From a virus: a stretch of 46,417 bases of DNA. Location of the stretch: positions 1 through 46,417 of the IMG/VR virus record IMGVR_UViG_3300010316_000013. One strand, written 5' to 3'. The position numbers and the translations under genes were made by a program. Below, one piece after another: positions 3,405 to 46,191 of this stretch. The notes under the pieces are model-generated. The model made no database searches. It was not told where the DNA came from and was given only the letters and a program-made list of their open reading frames with translations. Position 1 is the stretch's first letter. Each line of letters opens with the position of its first letter.

Positions 3405-3716
3405 ATGGATGATATTAGAAAGACCCTCGACTTAATTGAATCAATGGAAATTAAGCCAGAGCATAGGCAAGCATTAAAAATGGCTCAGAAGATTAGAGCA
3501 TATATTAACGACCCCGGCAAGAGTGCCGCAACAGACGATGTTGTCTATAACCAGATGGCAGAACTAGGCACACTACTATCTAAAGTAGGTGCAGACTTTG
3601 GTCCAAAGAGCTTAACTGATGTACTAAAGCTTATGCAACAGTATGCAGCCGACCGTAACCAAGAAGAGTTTACAGTTGATCGTTTCAAAGAACTAATTTC
3701 AATGGCCAGCAGATAA
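3405..3716 (+). CDS. Conserved phage protein, unknown
   Basis: The 103-residue, all-helical acidic protein (MDDIRKTLDLIESMEIKPEH) follows a TAGGAGA ribosome site. Its final A is shared with the ATG of the next gene, so the pair is coupled. No domain recognised. Confidence 0.75.
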   Translation: MDDIRKTLDLIESMEIKPEHRQALKMAQKIRAYINDPGKSAATDDVVYNQMAELGTLLSKVGADFGPKSLTDVLKLMQQYAADRNQEEFTVDRFKELISMASR

Positions 3717-11905: not shown

Positions 11906-14212
11906 ATGACTCAAGTCACCAAACGTAACGGAATTAAAGAATCATTAGACATCGAAAAACTACATAAGGTAGTTTTCTTTGCGTGTGAAGATATTACAGG
12001 TGTGAGTGCATCTGAAGTAGAAATTAAAAGTCAAATACAATTTTACAACGGTATGCAAACTAGTGAGATACAAGAGACACTGATCAAAGCCGCCGCAGAT
12101 CTTATATCAGAAGACACACCAAACTATCAATACGTTGGTGGCAGGTTAATTAACTATGCGCTGCGCAAGGAAGTATATGGCGGCTACGAACCATGTCACG
12201 TTAAAGAGCTAGTAGATCGCAACGTAGACAGAGGCTTTTATGATCCAGAACTGCTCGAGTACTACACTGACGATGACTGGGAAAAGATCAACAGCTTTAT
12301 TAAACACGAGCGTGACGAGAATCTAACATACGTTGCCATGGAGCAACTGCGTGGCAAGTATCTAGTACAAAACAGAGTAACCAAAGAGATCTTTGAAACT
12401 CCCCAGATGTGTTATATCCTTATTGCTGCTACACTGTTCCATAAGTACGAAGGCGACGAACGACTAAAGTGGATTAAAGACTATTACGATGCTATTAGCC
12501 TACACGACATTAGTTTACCCACTCCGATAATGGCAGGTGTACGTACTCCGCAGCGCCAGTTTAGTAGTTGCGTTCTTATTGAAACGGGCGACAGCCTCGA
12601 CAGCATTAATGCTACTGCCGCCAGCATTGTAAAGTATGTAAGTCAGAAAGCAGGCATTGGCATTGGTGGCGGAGCAATTAGAGCAATTGGTTCCCCTATC
12701 AGGAAAGGTGATGCATTCCATACAGGAGTTGTTCCCTTTTTTAAGCACTTCCAATCAGCAACACGAAGCTGCTCACAAGGCGGCGTGCGCAACGGCGCAG
12801 CAACAATATACTATCCCATATGGCATTTAGAAGCAGAAGAATTGCTTGTTCTCAAAAACAACAAAGGCACAGAAGACAACCGTGTTCGTCATATGGACTA
12901 TGGTGTACAGTTTAACAAGCTAATGTACGAAAGGCTTATCCAGGGCGGCAACATTACATTGTTCTCGCCCAGCGATGTTCCTGGACTACACGATGCGTTC
13001 TTTGCTGATCAAGATCTGTTCCGTGAGCTTTATGAAAAGGCAGAGCGCAGTACAAAGATTAGAAAGAAAACTATTAAAGCACTTGACTTGTTTCTTGCAT
13101 TTATGGAAGAGCGTAAAAACACAGGTCGCATCTATCTACAAAACGTAGACAACGCTAACGAGCATGGAAGCTTTATTCCTTCACTTGCGCCGATCCGCCA
13201 AAGTAACTTGTGTGCAGAGGTCGACTTGCCAACTAAGCCACTCAGCGATATCAACGATCCAGATGGTGAGATCAGTCTGTGTACACTAAGCGCAACAAAC
13301 TGGGGTAACATTAAGACACCCGCAGACTTTGAACGAGTGTGCAGACTAGCTGTACGCGGCCTAGACGCGCTGTTAAGCTACCAGAACTATCCTATCCTGG
13401 CAGCACAGTTGAGCACAGAGAAGCGTCGTCCTTTAGGCGTTGGCATTATCAACTTTGCTTACTGGATGGCAAAGAACGGATTCACATATCAAAACGTAAC
13501 ACCAGAAGCACTTGCTAAGATCGACGAGTGGACAGAAGCGTGGAGTTACTATCTTATCAAAGCAAGCGCAGACCTAGCAGCAGAGCAGGGCGCGCCGAGT
13601 GGTAATATGGAAACAAAGTACGGACACGGTATTACGCCAAACCAAACCTACAAGAAGGACCTAGACGAACTAGTGCCGCACGTTGAGCGCATGGATTGGG
13701 ACGGACTACGAGCGCAGCTAAAACGCACAGGCATCCGTAACTCAACACTAATGGCACTTATGCCAAGTGAAACATCTGCACAGGTAGCAAACGCAACCAA
13801 CGGCATTGAGCCGCCAAGAGCATTGATTAGCATTAAGCAAAGCAAACACGGCGTACTAACGCAGGTTGTACCGGAGTACAAGAAGCTAAAGAACAAGTAC
13901 GACCTACTGTGGACGCAGAAGTCTCCGGAAGGTTACCTTAAGATTATGGCCGTGCTTCAGAAGTACATTGACCAAGGTATTAGTGTTAACACCAGCTACA
14001 ACCCAATCTTCTTTGAAGATGAAAAGATTCCGATGAGCGTGATGCTTCAGCACTTGTTGATGTTTTACAAGTATGGCGGCAAGCAACTGTACTACTTTAA
14101 CACCAATGACGGACAAGGTGAAGTTGATGTCAACTCAATCATAGCAGCACAAGAAGCACCATTAGACGACTCAAATATCGACGACCAAGATTGTGAATCG
14201 TGTTCAATCTAA
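11906..14212 (+). CDS. nrdA: Ribonucleotide reductase class Ia, alpha subunit
   Basis: The 768-residue enzyme reduces ribonucleoside diphosphates to deoxy forms. An ATP-cone-like N-terminus (VTKRNGIKESLDIEKLHKV) is present. Catalytic residues are intact: Cys222 (FSSCVLI) and Cys459 (SLCTLS) as the redox pair, Asn434-Cys436-Glu438 (NLCAE) as the active site, and a C-terminal Cys763/Cys766 shuttle pair (DCESCSI). It partners with nrdB and the glutaredoxin downstream. The ribosome site AAGGATG lies about 12 bases before the ATG, so initiation looks modest. Confidence 0.98.
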   Translation: MTQVTKRNGIKESLDIEKLHKVVFFACEDITGVSASEVEIKSQIQFYNGMQTSEIQETLIKAAADLISEDTPNYQYVGGRLINYALRKEVYGGYEPCHVKELVDRNVDRGFYDPELLEYYTDDDWEKINSFIKHERDENLTYVAMEQLRGKYLVQNRVTKEIFETPQMCYILIAATLFHKYEGDERLKWIKDYYDAISLHDISLPTPIMAGVRTPQRQFSSCVLIETGDSLDSINATAASIVKYVSQKAGIGIGGGAIRAIGSPIRKGDAFHTGVVPFFKHFQSATRSCSQGGVRNGAATIYYPIWHLEAEELLVLKNNKGTEDNRVRHMDYGVQFNKLMYERLIQGGNITLFSPSDVPGLHDAFFADQDLFRELYEKAERSTKIRKKTIKALDLFLAFMEERKNTGRIYLQNVDNANEHGSFIPSLAPIRQSNLCAEVDLPTKPLSDINDPDGEISLCTLSATNWGNIKTPADFERVCRLAVRGLDALLSYQNYPILAAQLSTEKRRPLGVGIINFAYWMAKNGFTYQNVTPEALAKIDEWTEAWSYYLIKASADLAAEQGAPSGNMETKYGHGITPNQTYKKDLDELVPHVERMDWDGLRAQLKRTGIRNSTLMALMPSETSAQVANATNGIEPPRALISIKQSKHGVLTQVVPEYKKLKNKYDLLWTQKSPEGYLKIMAVLQKYIDQGISVNTSYNPIFFEDEKIPMSVMLQHLLMFYKYGGKQLYYFNTNDGQGEVDVNSIIAAQEAPLDDSNIDDQDCESCSI

Positions 14213-14216
14213 GCAC

Positions 14217-14244
14217 TTGACAAACAACAAAAATACTGTACAAT
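14217..14244 (+). promoter_or_regulatory. Sigma70-type promoter upstream of nrdB region
   Basis: TTGACA (14217-14222) and TACAAT (14239-14244) are 16 bases apart, right after nrdA. It precedes an AGAGGA site and a 4-codon stub ORF. Confidence 0.6.
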
Positions 14245-14267
14245 AAACGAAAGAGGATTACTGTAAA

Positions 14268-14282
14268 ATGTTATACGACTAG
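14268..14282 (+). pseudogene. Four-codon start stub, probable old nrdB start
   Basis: A good ribosome site (AGAGGATT) is followed by ATG TTA TAC GAC TAG (MLYD). It sits between a promoter and the late promoter of the inserted GIY-YIG gene, where the original nrdB start would be expected. It is read here as the broken 5' end left by the insertion. The tie to nrdB is inferred from position only. Confidence 0.4.
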
Positions 14283-14290
14283 AAGAAGTT

Positions 14291-14298
14291 GATAAATA
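14291..14298 (+). promoter_or_regulatory. T4-like late promoter of homing gene
   Basis: GATAAATA lies 20 bases before the ATG at 14318, with an ATAGGAG ribosome site between. Confidence 0.7.
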
Positions 14299-14317
14299 AA
14301 TATAATAGGAGAATATT

Positions 14318-14914
14318 ATGTTTGTTTATATGTGGACTAATTTAGTTAATGATAAAAAGTATATAGGAAGACATGCTGGAAAACAGACGAGCACTTATAA
14401 AGGTTCAGGAAAGTATTTTCGACGTGCTTTAAATAAATTTGGAGAAGAGAACTTTAAAAGAGAAATATTAAAAGAATGCAAGGATTTAACTGAATGTATT
14501 AAATGGGAACAATATTATTTAGATTTTTATAATGCTTCTAAAAACATTAATTTTTATAATATTTCTCCTAGCGCACATGGCGGACATCATGGTGCAGACT
14601 ATAACGGAGAAAAAAATCCAATGTGGGGTCGAAAACATCCTAACCATGTTCCCCACTATGGAAAAGATAACGGAATGCACGGAGTTAGAAGAAAGCTTTC
14701 TGAAAATCCAAATGCTAAAAAGGTTAAACTAATTAATCCTAGTGGTAAAGAATATTACTTTGATAGTATGTTAGAAGCTTGTATTTCTCTTACAGGAAGT
14801 GAAAAAGAATATGGAAAAATGAAACATTTATTCCATAAAACGAAAGAAAATAAATCTTTAAGAAAAGATGCTAGATTTTATAATTGGAAAGGATATTACA
14901 CCAATGAGCAATAG
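14318..14914 (+). CDS. GIY-YIG homing endonuclease
   Basis: The 198-residue protein has VYM (3-5) and YIG (15-17), a conserved Glu in ECIKWEQYYLD, and NUMOD3-like segments (GEKNPMWGRKHP, GKDNGMHG). The C-terminal part (IFYF-type helices) probably binds the target. Codon use is more AT-rich than nrdA and nrdB, a sign of independent origin. Its last 11 bases overlap the nrdB start, and an AAAGGA in its codons serves as the nrdB ribosome site. Confidence 0.9.
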   Translation: MFVYMWTNLVNDKKYIGRHAGKQTSTYKGSGKYFRRALNKFGEENFKREILKECKDLTECIKWEQYYLDFYNASKNINFYNISPSAHGGHHGADYNGEKNPMWGRKHPNHVPHYGKDNGMHGVRRKLSENPNAKKVKLINPSGKEYYFDSMLEACISLTGSEKEYGKMKHLFHKTKENKSLRKDARFYNWKGYYTNEQ

Positions 14915-16040
14915 CAGTGTATTTGACACGAGTAACAGAGCAAACCACACGGAAGTAAAGGCTTTCCTGGACCCAAGTGGTGGTCCTACAATACAGAGAT
15001 ACGACACTATGAAATATCCTAGTATTGACAAATTTACTGACAAGCAGTTGGGGTTTTTTTGGTTACCACAAGAAGTTGATATCTATCAAGATGCTAAAGA
15101 CTTCAAAGCACTTACAGAACACGAACGTCATATCTTTACTTCGAACCTAAAGAGACAGATCCTGCTCGACAGTGTACAAGGCCGTGCACCAGTAGAAGCA
15201 TTTGCTCCTATTGTATCGCTGCCTGAGTTAGAGAACTGGATTCAAACTTGGACGTTTAGTGAGACTATTCACAGCCGCAGCTATACACACATCATTCGCA
15301 ACGTGTATTCAAACCCAAGCAAGATCTTTGACGGCTTAATGGACATCAAAGAGATTGTGGAATGTGCCGAAGACATCTCCAAGTACTACGATGACTTGAT
15401 TGAAATGTCAATGTGGTACAATCTGCTAGGTGTAGGTACACACACTGTTAACGGTAAAGAAGTTGTTGTTGACTTGTATGAGCTAAAGAAGCTGCTATAC
15501 CTGACACTTATGAGCGTTAATATCCTCGAAGGCGTGCGGTTCTATGTTAGCTTTGCGTGTAGCTGGGCGTTTGCTGAACTAAAGAAGATGGAAGGCAATG
15601 CTAAGATCATTAAGTTTATCGCGCGTGACGAAAATCTACACTTGGGTAGCACACAGTTGATGCTTGGGATCCTACAAAAAGACGACCCAGACTTTGTTAA
15701 GATTGTAGAAGAAACCAAGGACGAGTGTATACAAATGTTTGTAGACGCAGTTGATCAAGAGAAAGAATGGGCAGAGTACCTGTTTAAAGACGGTTCTATG
15801 ATCGGACTTAACACTCACTTACTAAGCGAGTACATTGAATGGATCTGTACACGTCGAATGGAAAAGGTAAAGCTACCTAGCCCGTACAACGTAAAGCATA
15901 ATCCGCTACCTTGGACACAGAAATGGATCTCAGGATCAGACGTGCAAGTAGCCCCTCAGCAAACGCAGATAAGTTCATACATCACAGGCGGCAGCAAGCA
16001 AGATGTCGACGGCGATACCTTTAAAGGAATGAGTCTTTAA
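14904..16040 (+). CDS. nrdB: Ribonucleotide reductase class Ia, beta subunit
   Basis: The 378-residue subunit houses the diiron-tyrosyl radical cofactor. Ligands and radical are in place: Asp89 (LLDSVQGR), Glu120 and His123 (SETIHS), Tyr127 (RSYTH), then Glu in NILEGVRFY and Glu/His in ARDENLHL. I chose ATG 14904 over an upstream in-frame ATG inside the GIY-YIG gene because it has AAAGGA upstream and matches the family start. Both ends are flanked by GIY-YIG genes, and its final 56 bases are repeated at 17185-17240. Confidence 0.97.
   Translation: MSNSSVFDTSNRANHTEVKAFLDPSGGPTIQRYDTMKYPSIDKFTDKQLGFFWLPQEVDIYQDAKDFKALTEHERHIFTSNLKRQILLDSVQGRAPVEAFAPIVSLPELENWIQTWTFSETIHSRSYTHIIRNVYSNPSKIFDGLMDIKEIVECAEDISKYYDDLIEMSMWYNLLGVGTHTVNGKEVVVDLYELKKLLYLTLMSVNILEGVRFYVSFACSWAFAELKKMEGNAKIIKFIARDENLHLGSTQLMLGILQKDDPDFVKIVEETKDECIQMFVDAVDQEKEWAEYLFKDGSMIGLNTHLLSEYIEWICTRRMEKVKLPSPYNVKHNPLPWTQKWISGSDVQVAPQQTQISSYITGGSKQDVDGDTFKGMSL
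15978..16033 (+). repeat. 56-bp direct repeat, copy 1 (end of nrdB)
   Basis: The last codons of nrdB, from TACATCACAGGCGGCAGC to GGAATGAG, are identical base for base to 17185-17240 on the far side of the GIY-YIG gene. Confidence 0.95.
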
Positions 16041-17165
16041 ATGTGGACCAACCCAACTACAATTGATCCTGATATATTAAGCATGTCAAAATCTCTCAAT
16101 TGTAGTTGGGTTGGCGCAGTTAGCGTAAAATACGAATCAGCTTATGACATCAACGATTGTCATAATAATTCTAGTTTACATGCTACTATATATGGCGGAA
16201 CTCAAACAATTGGATATTATTTTATAAAGGGGTTCGGTACTACACAGGCAATTCGTCATAGCGTGTGGGAGAAAAATCAAACACTGTTAGATGTAACTCC
16301 GCATTTAGATAATAGAGAATACATTATTTTTGCAAAAAGTGCAATACAAAATAAAGAGTATTCTATACCTAACTGTTATTTTCAGTCTCTTGCTAAATAT
16401 ATAGGACAGGAGACTGAAGTTATGTATTATGTATATCAGATAGTAGACCCAAGAAACAACCAGCCGTTTTATGTTGGAAAAGGAAAAGGACGAAGAGCAA
16501 AAACTCATTTATGGAAAATTCCTGAAACTAGAAATGCATATAAAGAGAATAAAATTGCTGATATTCGAAAATCCAATCTAGAACCTAGAATTGAATATAT
16601 TGCTGAAAATATTATCGACGAAACACTAGCATATAACATCGAAGCAGTATTAATTAAAAAATATGGCAGAAAAGGTTACGATAAAAATGGTATACTATCT
16701 AATGTATGCTTAGACAACAGGCCTCCTAACCAAAAAGGAAAGACATATGAAGAAATCTATGGTATTGAAAAAGCATTAGAACAAAGAAAACTAAGGTCTA
16801 GACTTCAACAAGAACGAAAAGGGTATGGACCAAAAACTCATACTGAAGAAACTAAAAATAAAATTAGCAAAAGTATTACCGAACTGCACAATAACAGAGA
16901 CTGTTCACATAACGAAGGAACCAAGAAAAAAATTGGACTAGCCAATAGCAAGTATACAGGTAAGTTAAATAAGAAAAGTTATTGCTATGTGTTAACATCT
17001 CCTACTGGTGTAGAGCACGAAGTATACGGTGGAGAAGCAACAGAATTTTGCAAACAAAATAATTTAAGTTGGAGTACACTTAAGATGCAGATACAAAAAA
17101 ACTGGCCTATTCCTAAAAAAGGTAAAACAAAAGGTTGGAAATTAGAGGTAAAGAATGAAAAATAA
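16041..17165 (+). CDS. GIY-YIG homing endonuclease with extra N-terminal domain
   Basis: The protein has 374 residues. The ATG begins on the base after the nrdB stop. Residues 1-125 are a separate domain of unknown function containing HSVWEKNQTLLDVTPHLD. The GIY-YIG domain starts at YVY (130-132) with YVG at 144-146, and the catalytic Glu lies in AYNIEAVLIKKYGRKGY. NUMOD-type DNA-binding segments follow, with a C-terminal NUMOD1-like part (YVLTSPTGVEHEVYGG). Codon use is AT-rich. The gene separates nrdB from its old 3' end and from glutaredoxin. Confidence 0.88.
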   Translation: MWTNPTTIDPDILSMSKSLNCSWVGAVSVKYESAYDINDCHNNSSLHATIYGGTQTIGYYFIKGFGTTQAIRHSVWEKNQTLLDVTPHLDNREYIIFAKSAIQNKEYSIPNCYFQSLAKYIGQETEVMYYVYQIVDPRNNQPFYVGKGKGRRAKTHLWKIPETRNAYKENKIADIRKSNLEPRIEYIAENIIDETLAYNIEAVLIKKYGRKGYDKNGILSNVCLDNRPPNQKGKTYEEIYGIEKALEQRKLRSRLQQERKGYGPKTHTEETKNKISKSITELHNNRDCSHNEGTKKKIGLANSKYTGKLNKKSYCYVLTSPTGVEHEVYGGEATEFCKQNNLSWSTLKMQIQKNWPIPKKGKTKGWKLEVKNEK

Positions 17166-20047: not shown

Positions 20048-20479
20048 ATGAAACTTACTAAAATCGTTACTGTCGCAGCACTTGTCGCAGGAGCATTTAC
20101 ATTAAGTGCCTGCCAGGACGATGCTACTATTGCTTCACAGAATATCAACCGTGCTGCTGATAATTTCGAAGTGATGCGCCGCGTAGTATTTATGAATGGC
20201 ATTACAGACGAATACATGCTCGAAGTAATCGGAGCATGTTCGCTTAACGATCGCGGAACAAGCGTACAAGTTACTTGTAAGAATGGCGAAGGAGAGTTTG
20301 TTCGCCACCAGCTTGGACTTAGTGATAACGTAACCTACTTCGCCGAACAGCTCGAAGCAATTGATGTTAGCACAAACCACTACCGCGTTACATTTAAGCC
20401 GCAACAGATCATTCCTGACATTGATCTTCGTGGTAGTTTCGAAGACTTAACTACTAACCATAGTGAAGTAAATCAATAA
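20048..20479 (+). CDS. Phage-encoded lipoprotein
   Basis: The protein has 143 residues. A signal peptide (KLTKIVTVAALVAGAFT) ends in the lipobox LSAC with the lipidated Cys22, so the mature protein is anchored in an envelope membrane. The rest is a soluble domain with two further Cys. It is an independent unit with its own promoter and terminator. A cell-surface role such as superinfection exclusion is plausible but not shown by sequence. Confidence 0.85.
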   Translation: MKLTKIVTVAALVAGAFTLSACQDDATIASQNINRAADNFEVMRRVVFMNGITDEYMLEVIGACSLNDRGTSVQVTCKNGEGEFVRHQLGLSDNVTYFAEQLEAIDVSTNHYRVTFKPQQIIPDIDLRGSFEDLTTNHSEVNQ

Positions 20480-20483
20480 AATT

Positions 20484-20504
20484 AGGGCCTTAGGGCCCTT
20501 TTTT
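20484..20504 (+). terminator. Rho-independent terminator
   Basis: AGGGCC, loop TTAG, GGCCCT, then six T residues. It ends the lipoprotein unit just before the tmRNA promoter. Confidence 0.9.
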
Positions 20505-20505
20505 C

Positions 20506-20534
20506 TTGACAAGCACTTCTAAAGAGTGTATAAA
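20506..20534 (+). promoter_or_regulatory. Promoter of the tmRNA gene
   Basis: TTGACA (20506-20511), 17 bases, TATAAA (20529-20534). The transcript would begin a few bases before the first tmRNA hairpin at 20547. Confidence 0.88.
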
Positions 20535-20540
20535 TATACT

Positions 20541-20960
20541 TGCAACGTTGAAGCAATTCAACAACATATTCTGGACCGGGGGGCGGTACCCCGATCGTCC
20601 ACCACAAGCACATAATGTGTGTTTTTGATGGGCGATAAATAGGATCGACAGGTGTGTGAGGAAAGTGGAGTTGTCCCGATCTAAGCTGGGTAACGCGAAG
20701 AACATACTAACTGCAAACGTAAATGCAAAGCCAGAGATGGCACTAGCAGCGTAAGCTGCGTGGGCTTACAGACTGCCTAGAAACAGAAAATCTGCTCCGA
20801 GTATGGGTTCCACTCGTTTACTACAAAAAACGGGCCCACTTACAGACGGAAAAAAGGCACAACATAGTTTTACTGGCTGAGTTTATGGTCTTGTGCTATA
20901 CAATCTTTTAGTACCGGCGGACTACGAATAGTGGGATACAAAACGCACCACTCTGAAAAT
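20541..20960 (+). ncRNA. ssrA: Circularly permuted two-piece tmRNA
   Basis: The acceptor piece comes first: a GNRA hairpin (20547-20562), a T arm (CGGGG, 7-base loop, CCCCG; 20577-20593) and ATCGTCC-A-CCA (20594-20604). After a 25-base spacer the coding piece begins GGGCGAT (20630-20636), which pairs with ATCGTCC to form the 7-bp acceptor stem, followed by the tmRNA-like AGGATCGACAGG. The tag frame (20713-20754) reads ANVNAKPEMALAA and stops at TAA, ending in the canonical ALAA degradation signal. The T loop (GGCGGTA) is not the tRNA consensus. Both ends are approximate. Permuted tmRNA is normal in alphaproteobacteria and some cyanobacteria, but unusual in a phage. Confidence 0.93.
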
Positions 20961-20982
20961 GTAAGATGATGTGTAGTACATT

Positions 20983-21017
20983 GGTAAATACCTTATAAGC
21001 TTATATAAGGGAATACC
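20983..21017 (+). promoter_or_regulatory. Hairpin masking a ribosome site
   Basis: CCTTATA (20991-20997) pairs with TATAAGG (21004-21010), extended by GGTA/TACC. The AAGG ribosome site of the gene at 21019 is in the stem, so translation may be structure-controlled. Confidence 0.5.
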
Positions 21018-21018
21018 A

Positions 21019-26001: not shown

Positions 26002-26525
26002 ATTTAAAAGAGCTTACCTGGGAACATCACAAGAACGCTGAACGACAAGCATTTGTAAAAGAGCTGCTAGGTGGGAACATAACTAATAACCGTTACGCTA
26101 CCTTTCTCTTTAACAGTCACCCACAGTACAACATACTTGAACAATTTGCTATGCTTCACGATTTGATAGACTTTAGGCGAGCACCTGCCATCCATGAAGA
26201 CTATTTAGAACTTTGGGACGAACATCCAAATCAGCCCCCGACTCTTCCGGTAGTAAAAGAGTATACAGATCATATTGCATCAATCAAAGATGATCCTAAC
26301 AAGCTAATGGCACATATCTACGTTCGTCATATGGGTGACTTGAGTGGCGGACAGATGATTGCAAAACGTGTACCTGGCAAGGGCAGACTATACCAGTTCG
26401 ACGAAGATGTTGATGTTTTAAAAGAAAGCATCAGAACACGTCTCGATGATTCTATGGCAGACGAAGCTAAGATCTGCTTTGACTTTGCCACTAAGCAGTT
26501 TCAACAAATGATGGATATTAAATGA
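25998..26525 (+). CDS. ho1: Heme oxygenase
   Basis: The 175-residue protein is short for the family (about 210-240) but has the proximal heme His in EHHKNAE (His11) and the distal helix motif GDLSGGQ (around residue 112-118). It opens heme to biliverdin IX-alpha, releasing iron and CO. It is coupled to clpS upstream and to a bilin reductase downstream by ATGA overlaps, so biliverdin is probably its product for the next enzyme. Confidence 0.93.
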   Translation: MNLKELTWEHHKNAERQAFVKELLGGNITNNRYATFLFNSHPQYNILEQFAMLHDLIDFRRAPAIHEDYLELWDEHPNQPPTLPVVKEYTDHIASIKDDPNKLMAHIYVRHMGDLSGGQMIAKRVPGKGRLYQFDEDVDVLKESIRTRLDDSMADEAKICFDFATKQFQQMMDIK

Positions 26526-27211
26526 GCGAAGTCTGGGATATACTGATTGACTGTCAAACTCAAATAATTGATAAACTAGATGCTAGTTGCTTCGAGTATC
26601 ACGAATTTGAAATGGAAAAGTTTAACCAGCCCGATAACGGATGGGTTAACAGACTTTGGATGAGTGATAGTATACGAAGAGCTCACGTTGACGTAGTAGA
26701 TGCTAGAGCCAGTCGCGGACTTTGGATGATGCACGTATGCGTGTTTCCTAGGTTAAGCAGCGATGCTCCTATATACGGGTTTGATGTCATTGCTGGCAAG
26801 AACAAGATGACAGGGGCCTTTTTAGACTTCTCTCCTACAGTACACGACACGCATCCTATGATGATTGAATTTGAAGATATGGTACAAGCGTTTGTACCTG
26901 CGAAGAAGCGCGAACTGCCTGAGTGGGCTACTAACATATTTTCAAAGAATATGATAGCAGCAGGTAATGTTGGCAGCACTGAAACTAATGATATTGTTCA
27001 ACTTGCGTTAGGCACATTGGATTATTACATTAACGACGTCAGTGATTATACAGGCAACGCAACAGAAGATTTAGTTAAAGCTAAACAAAATTGGTATTGT
27101 GAGAACCAAAAGCTAAACCCGCATACTCCTCGAGTAATGAAAAGCCTAGGCTTAGACGAAGCGGACGTTAACTTATTCTGTAAGGATATTCTCTTTCCTG
27201 AAATCTTATAA
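26522..27211 (+). CDS. Ferredoxin-dependent bilin reductase (PebS/PcyX-like)
   Basis: The 229-residue protein has the family core RLSSDAPIYGFDVIAGKNKMTGAF followed by LDFSP with the proton-donating Asp102, and a C-terminal LFCKDILFPEIL region. It is fused in operon with heme oxygenase, so it should reduce biliverdin with ferredoxin. Sequence alone does not separate phycoerythrobilin-forming PebS or PcyX from other members. PcyX is a phage type reported from marine metagenomes, which fits this context. Confidence 0.85.
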   Translation: MSEVWDILIDCQTQIIDKLDASCFEYHEFEMEKFNQPDNGWVNRLWMSDSIRRAHVDVVDARASRGLWMMHVCVFPRLSSDAPIYGFDVIAGKNKMTGAFLDFSPTVHDTHPMMIEFEDMVQAFVPAKKRELPEWATNIFSKNMIAAGNVGSTETNDIVQLALGTLDYYINDVSDYTGNATEDLVKAKQNWYCENQKLNPHTPRVMKSLGLDEADVNLFCKDILFPEIL

Positions 27212-45645: not shown

Positions 45646-46191
45646 ATGTTAATATGTAAACAATGTAATACCGAATTTAAGCCGAATAAAATGAAAGCAC
45701 AAAGTTTTTGTACTTATGAGTGTTATAAAGCATCTTTAGAGAAACCTAAAAAGTTTTGTAAAAACTGTAATAGTGAAATAACTAAGAAATGGGCAAAAGA
45801 GTTTTGTTGCCGTTCGTGTAGTGCTTCGTTTAATAACAAAAAAAGAGACTATGGATATCGTCGTTCAAAGTTAGAAGAACACATCGAAGAAGTAGTTAAA
45901 GAAAAAACTGATAAAACTATTTTGTTTAACGATAAAACAGTTATAGGATCAGAATTAGATATATATGTTCCAGACTTAAAGTTAGCTATTGAAATACAAG
46001 GTATATTTCATTATCAACCAGTGTTTGGAGAAGAGAAGTTTAACAGTATTCAAAAAAATGATGCTGAAAAAAGAAAAAAGTGCGAAGAGTTAGGGATCAG
46101 GTTAGTTGAGATTGATACTCGAGAACAACAACAGTTTAGCATAGAATCTTCTAAGAAGTATGTTGATATTGTACTAGAACTGATTTCATAA
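45646..46191 (+). CDS. Zinc-finger PD-(D/E)XK-type homing nuclease
   Basis: The protein has 181 residues. Two Cys4 zinc ribbons lie in the first 65 residues (CKQCN ... CTYEC and CKNCN ... CCRSC). A nuclease-like domain follows with GSELDIYVPDLKLAIEIQG (about residue 105), the E-x-D...E-x-Q spacing of Vsr/DUF559-like nucleases, and LGIRLVEID at the end. Codons are AT-rich and its location within the tRNA array fits a free-standing homing gene. Confidence 0.75.
   Translation: MLICKQCNTEFKPNKMKAQSFCTYECYKASLEKPKKFCKNCNSEITKKWAKEFCCRSCSASFNNKKRDYGYRRSKLEEHIEEVVKEKTDKTILFNDKTVIGSELDIYVPDLKLAIEIQGIFHYQPVFGEEKFNSIQKNDAEKRKKCEELGIRLVEIDTREQQQFSIESSKKYVDIVLELIS

Follow-up and report, generated by a model that had tools for sequence, protein, structure and literature searches.

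tmRNA is an RNA that frees stuck ribosomes, and its gene can be carried by phages as well as by bacteria. Two-piece tmRNAs were reported in 2021 from 53 of the 402 tmRNA-bearing phages found among 18,146 phages, and 50 of these 53 were marine or aquatic (PMC9004378). One such example is Melnitz, whose tmRNA is of the alphaproteobacterial type and whose host is a Methylophilales bacterium (PMC9004378). A tmRNA survey of 2025 gives 79 unique phage tmRNA sequences, all forms included, and 11,946 permuted sequences overall, and those of its sections cited here note one tRNA gene and one repetitive element within the intervening sequences of permuted genes (PMC11915505). Two-piece phage tmRNAs are already known, and the gene described here adds one more. 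The initial annotation of this DNA had called a phage copy rare, which was overstated in view of the 53 phages above (PMC9004378) and of at least 163 distinct members collected here from IMG/VR.

Anatomy and setting of the tmRNA gene

The window, by which we mean the whole stretch of DNA analysed, corresponds to a virus record in IMG/VR and is 46,417 bases long. It carries on its plus strand a complete permuted two-piece tmRNA gene at 20542 to about 20795, as judged from Rfam, ARAGORN and the sequence itself. We put the probability that this gene is a complete, selected, phage-borne ssrA of the permuted form at about 0.92, based on its promoter, a closed stem with G3-U70, an encoded CCA, a tag stop codon in the P5 loop, and stems that have changed yet stay paired in related phages. 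The initial annotation had proposed such a gene and a covariance-model search for it, and the proposal is borne out by matches to RF04321 (tmRNA_permuted; 98.5 bits, E 4e-18, gathering score 47) and RF01849 (alpha_tmRNA; 85.3 bits, E 8e-22, gathering score 50), each aligned across the full model, by an ARAGORN call of a permuted tmRNA with the tag ANVNAKPEMALAA, and by the phage genes that flank it. The RF04321 alignment covers positions 1-213, T-arm and P2/D-region included; two of its P2-region pairs are non-standard. The locus folds better than its shuffles (z = -3.2).

The acceptor half precedes the tag half, with the stem closed between them. The acceptor piece (20542-20604, from the RF04321 and RF01849 alignments and the sequence) starts with AACGTTGAAGCAA and consists of the P2 3' strand, the T-arm (20577-20593, CGGGG/CCCCG), the acceptor 3' strand ATCGTCC (20594-20600) and a terminal ACCA, in which the discriminator A (A73) lies at 20601 and the encoded CCA at 20602-20604. 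This is followed by an intervening segment, or spacer, of 25 nt (CAAGCACATAATGTGTGTTTTTGAT, 20605-20629), which forms a hairpin prolonging the acceptor helix; it holds no ORF, and its removal by processing is expected. The coding piece (20630-20795, the 3' end being an estimate) comprises the acceptor 5' strand GGGCGAT (20630-20636), the D-loop AAATAGGATCGAC, the P2 5' strand, the tag, the P5 hairpin and a 3' pseudoknot. The acceptor strands at 20630-20636 and 20594-20600 form seven of seven pairs, the third of which is a G-U pair (G3-U70), the known identity element for alanine. The tag frame at 20713-20754 reads GCA AAC GTA AAT GCA AAG CCA GAG ATG GCA CTA GCA GCG TAA, so that ANVNAKPEMALAA ends in a hydrophobic AA motif before the stop codon TAA, which itself sits in the loop of the P5 hairpin GCAGC-GTAA-GCTGC (20746-20759). 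The reversed order of the halves, the acceptor-stem coordinates, the encoded CCA and the ALAA end of the tag had all been noted in the initial annotation, and each agrees with the sequence (the tag also with ARAGORN).

The mature 3' end is estimated to lie near 20795, because a small pseudoknot can be read from the sequence at 20762-20794 (GGGC 20762-20765 with GCCT 20775-20778, and CAGA 20769-20772 with TCTG 20791-20794) and the RF01849 match stops at 20798. An extent of 20506-20960 had been given before; the part that holds the promoter and the gene stands, whereas 20796-20960 has no Rfam match above gathering score and lies outside the tmRNA, downstream of its mature end. A separate RNA at 20796-20960 was considered and rejected, its sole Rfam match being far under the gathering score; folding of 20798-21018 is barely better than that of shuffles (z -1.1).

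The gene is separated from its upstream neighbour by an intrinsic-terminator-like site of that neighbour (20484-20505, plus strand), in which a GC stem of six pairs at 20484-20499 is followed by TTTTTCTTGA. Directly after it, on the same strand, is a sigma-70-type promoter (20506-20534) composed of TTGACA (20506-20511), 17 nt and TATAAA (20529-20534), which matches the consensus at 11 of 12 positions and is absent from a strict scan because that scan accepts only T as the sixth base of the -10 box. The dedicated promoter claimed at the outset is upheld by the relatives, where a counterpart with at least 10 of 12 matches is found in 131 of 162, as against 9 of 162 shuffled sequences, among the matches listed.

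The upstream gene itself (20048-20479, plus strand) is a phage gene with a profile match to PHROG 478 and Pfam Phage_VG64 ('recombination directionality factor', RDF-like), and on both sides of the tmRNA lie phage genes that include class I ribonucleotide reductase, homing endonucleases, a head maturation protease and this RDF-like gene. The same order, an RDF-like gene (77-87% identity to that of the window) and then a permuted tmRNA with a similar promoter, is found in contigs L015, L016 and L019. In the related 317-kb contig L018 the RDF-like neighbour is present with no tmRNA match, so the tmRNA gene is dispensable in that lineage. Elsewhere in the window, 11906-17165 encodes the large and small subunits of class I ribonucleotide reductase, and homing endonuclease genes both separate and follow the two subunit genes; the small subunit is nearest (about 60% identity) to those of jumbo phages that infect enterobacteria and Xanthomonas. 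The segment 44142-46369 contains seven tRNA genes (Asn, Ser, Val, Trp, Ser, Gly, Asp) and, interspersed with them, a gene for an HNH-type endonuclease. A gene at 26522-27211 encodes a ferredoxin-dependent bilin reductase (Pfam PF05996, E 1e-19); auxiliary metabolic genes of this kind are known in aquatic phages.

Phage relatives and the reading frames nested in their spacers

Relatives were collected by two independent scans of IMG/VR, one searching for the start of the acceptor piece (AACGTTGAAGCAA...CTGGAC; at least 119 stretches) and one for the T-arm/CCA boundary (at least 120 stretches), the latter restricted to spacers with AAGG in their 5' arm; pooled, they give at least 216 readable members, at least 163 of them distinct. 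All 163 distinct relatives listed have seven standard acceptor pairs, with pair types varying at positions 4-6, a count that is partly by construction because the collector demanded at least six of seven pairs. G-U at position 3 was no requirement, and G3-U70 is kept together with A73 in 163 of 163. The spacer arms are paired in 94.9% of cells, compared with 73.2% (maximum 75.8%) after permutation of the arms across the members listed, and the first scan involved no selection on either spacer arms or promoter. Among the relatives listed, the segment between the halves is a covarying hairpin, and its length ranges from 12 to 304 nt.

Several relatives bear signs of exchange within the gene. L015 and the pair L016/L019 (about 3480-3700) have the P2 and tag half and the flanks in common and differ in T-arm, acceptor stem, spacer and D region, and the differing tRNA-like-domain parts of L015 are each closed by their own pairing; this is a recombinational swap inside the gene, within the tRNA-like domain, that left the stem intact. 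The same or nearly the same spacer is also seen on different tmRNA backbones (L133/L134/L209, L136/L213 and L196/L206), as if spacers had been exchanged between them. Unusually long tags of 29 aa with the common core VFSFVDF...YVNEDFALAA occur in L129, L213, L115 and L111.

Many of the longer spacers contain reading frames. In the first scan, made without selection on spacers, an ATG-ORF longer than expected from shuffling (p<0.05 each, combined p 7e-13) is present in 12 of the 20 distinct spacers of at least 95 nt and in 1 of the 29 of 60-94 nt, among the matches listed. In the second, AAGG-selected scan, 88 of the 89 long spacers listed have an ORF of at least 25 aa that takes up 60% or more of the spacer length; for 64 of these 88, the stop codon ends 1 nt short of the coding half. 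In a minority of second-scan frames the end lies beyond the processing site, inside the coding half (+13 or more), which would leave the excised piece of those relatives with no stop codon; in many relatives the nested ORFs fit between the two processing sites. Among the matches listed they encode 25 to about 80 aa and fall into at least about ten unrelated protein families, for example in L203, L180, L115, L111, L268 and L249 within L106-L337. Median dN/dS values are 0.11-0.20 in six multi-member families; at the level of sequence comparison, the presence of selected nested ORFs is established, and the selection is purifying. No match of the nested proteins to PHROG was found, and those to Pfam were sub-threshold only.

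Homologues of the nested proteins also occur as ordinary genes just upstream of a tmRNA (that of L203 in L216, that of L115 in L137, that of L128 in many loci), and a nested family of 62 aa corresponds to gp85 of Melnitz, encoded directly before the Melnitz ssrA. Melnitz (L338) has in its 142-nt spacer an unannotated ORF of its own, MFKWLSKTR...IPKYLSG..., near record position 46096 (locus position 1597), and the PKYLSG end recurs in L184 and L215. The nested ORF of L128/L146/L221 has no in-frame ATG at the expected place and uses the UAG of the D-loop as its stop; an AUA start would be our guess. The paper on Melnitz makes no mention of a spacer or intervening segment (PMC9004378). The nested ORFs of the window gene's relatives look new, since no protein gene is mentioned for intervening sequences of permuted genes in the cited sections of the 2025 survey (PMC11915505), and no report of ORFs within a tmRNA intervening sequence was found in the open-access literature.

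The arrangement of these frames suggests how they might be expressed. Arms are paired in 96.4% of cells in ORF-bearing spacers, as opposed to 80.1% (maximum 83.6%) when permuted, the start codon usually lies 12-15 nt past the CCA end in most families, and the spacer stem has the Shine-Dalgarno sequence in its 5' arm. Because this arm is paired, the folded precursor would hide the Shine-Dalgarno sequence, and translation of the nested ORF and maturation of the tmRNA may exclude each other. It is probable that, in the large phage family to which the window gene belongs, the spacer is a site for nested small protein genes, that the excised piece would serve as a mini-mRNA, and that its translation would compete with the folding of the tmRNA precursor and with its processing; within this model, the coupling of translation to maturation is what we infer.

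Proposed function and alternative readings

The spacer of the window gene would be excised by RNase P and a tRNA 3' nuclease, both of them tRNA-processing enzymes of the host, leaving the acceptor and coding pieces paired, and host AlaRS would charge the product with alanine. The phage tmRNA would presumably work with host SmpB to free ribosomes that stall on broken mRNAs in the course of infection, and the nascent chain would be tagged with ANVNAKPEMALAA for host proteases. No smpB was found in the 46-kb window record or in 13 other phage records by a search that recovers smpB in 10 control genomes. The likely benefit would be that ribosomes are kept circulating while phage and host nucleases fragment mRNA.

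A real tmRNA could also act against the host, either as a decoy that ties up SmpB or by re-routing the tagging of host proteins to feed phage synthesis. The TLD-only RNA of phage DS6A resembles a tmRNA-inhibiting molecule (PMC4131195; and, in the sections cited, PMC11915505), and selective degradation of host proteins is among the proposals made for Melnitz (PMC9004378). Unlike the DS6A RNA, however, the window gene has all normal parts of trans-translation intact, including an ALAA-type tag, and an anti-host role is considered unlikely.

It is very unlikely that the gene is an attachment-site remnant, in which case it would be a copy of a host ssrA without function of its own, brought in by a temperate phage with its integration site in the tmRNA gene. 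Integration at tmRNA genes is common, the adjoining gene is named for a recombination directionality factor, and integrases occur in some roseophage records with a permuted tmRNA (MAL1, MD18, RpoS-V10 and RcXuper, not RcRudolph, of the five searched). The gene is nevertheless no fragment, being complete with its promoter and covarying stems; no tyrosine integrase was found in the window, in the large records L144, L014, L274, L252 and L239 or in Melnitz, and relatives of the RDF-like gene are present in many unrelated phages. The idea that the contig stems from the host chromosome or is chimeric, with the gene being the host's own ssrA, draws on the alphaproteobacterial look of the tag; the phage genes flanking it (for ribonucleotide reductase, a head maturation protease and homing endonucleases) and the recurrence of the gene order in the independent virus contigs L015, L016 and L019 make it close to negligible. 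The tag had also been taken to point to an alphaproteobacterial host, a conclusion that is not supported, as a tag is weak evidence of host when Melnitz pairs an alphaproteobacterial-type tmRNA with a Methylophilales host (PMC9004378).

Comparison with described permuted tmRNAs

With its precise anatomy and conserved promoter, the window copy is a well-supported addition to the two-piece tmRNAs of phages. Among its relatives, many uncultured marine phages as well as the cultured Melnitz have protein genes nested in the spacer, which shows that this part of a permuted RNA gene can accommodate further genes. Such nested ORFs place a small protein on the same transcript as a ribosome-rescue RNA, and through them mutual exclusion between translation and RNA maturation becomes testable.

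The window gene is like the alphaproteobacterial permuted tmRNA (RF01849/RF04321) in gene order, G3-U70, encoded CCA, the D-loop AAATAGGATCGAC and a tag stop codon in the P5 loop; it is different in that it is phage-borne, has its own sigma-70-type promoter conserved in its phage family, and begins its acceptor piece with AACGTTGAAGCAA. The tmRNAs of roseophages DSS3_MAL1, MD18, RpoS-V10, DSS3P8, RcXuper and RcRudolph share with it the permuted form, an acceptor stem of seven of seven pairs and alpha-type tags, while their spacers are GC-rich, 97-111 nt long and without a convincing ORF. Most of the tmRNA genes in these six roseophages are unannotated, and permuted tmRNA genes are unannotated in the isolate records of MD18, RpoS-V10, RcXuper, RcSimone-Hastad, Cp1R7A-A1 and DSS3P8 (L003, L339, L340, L341, L342, L344). 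Like Melnitz and other two-piece phage tmRNAs (PMC9004378), the window gene is a two-piece form in a marine phage, with a similar promoter context and a record without smpB. It differs from the Melnitz ssrA in its 25-nt spacer and its lack of a glutamine riboswitch match, whereas Melnitz has a 142-nt spacer that holds an unannotated ORF.
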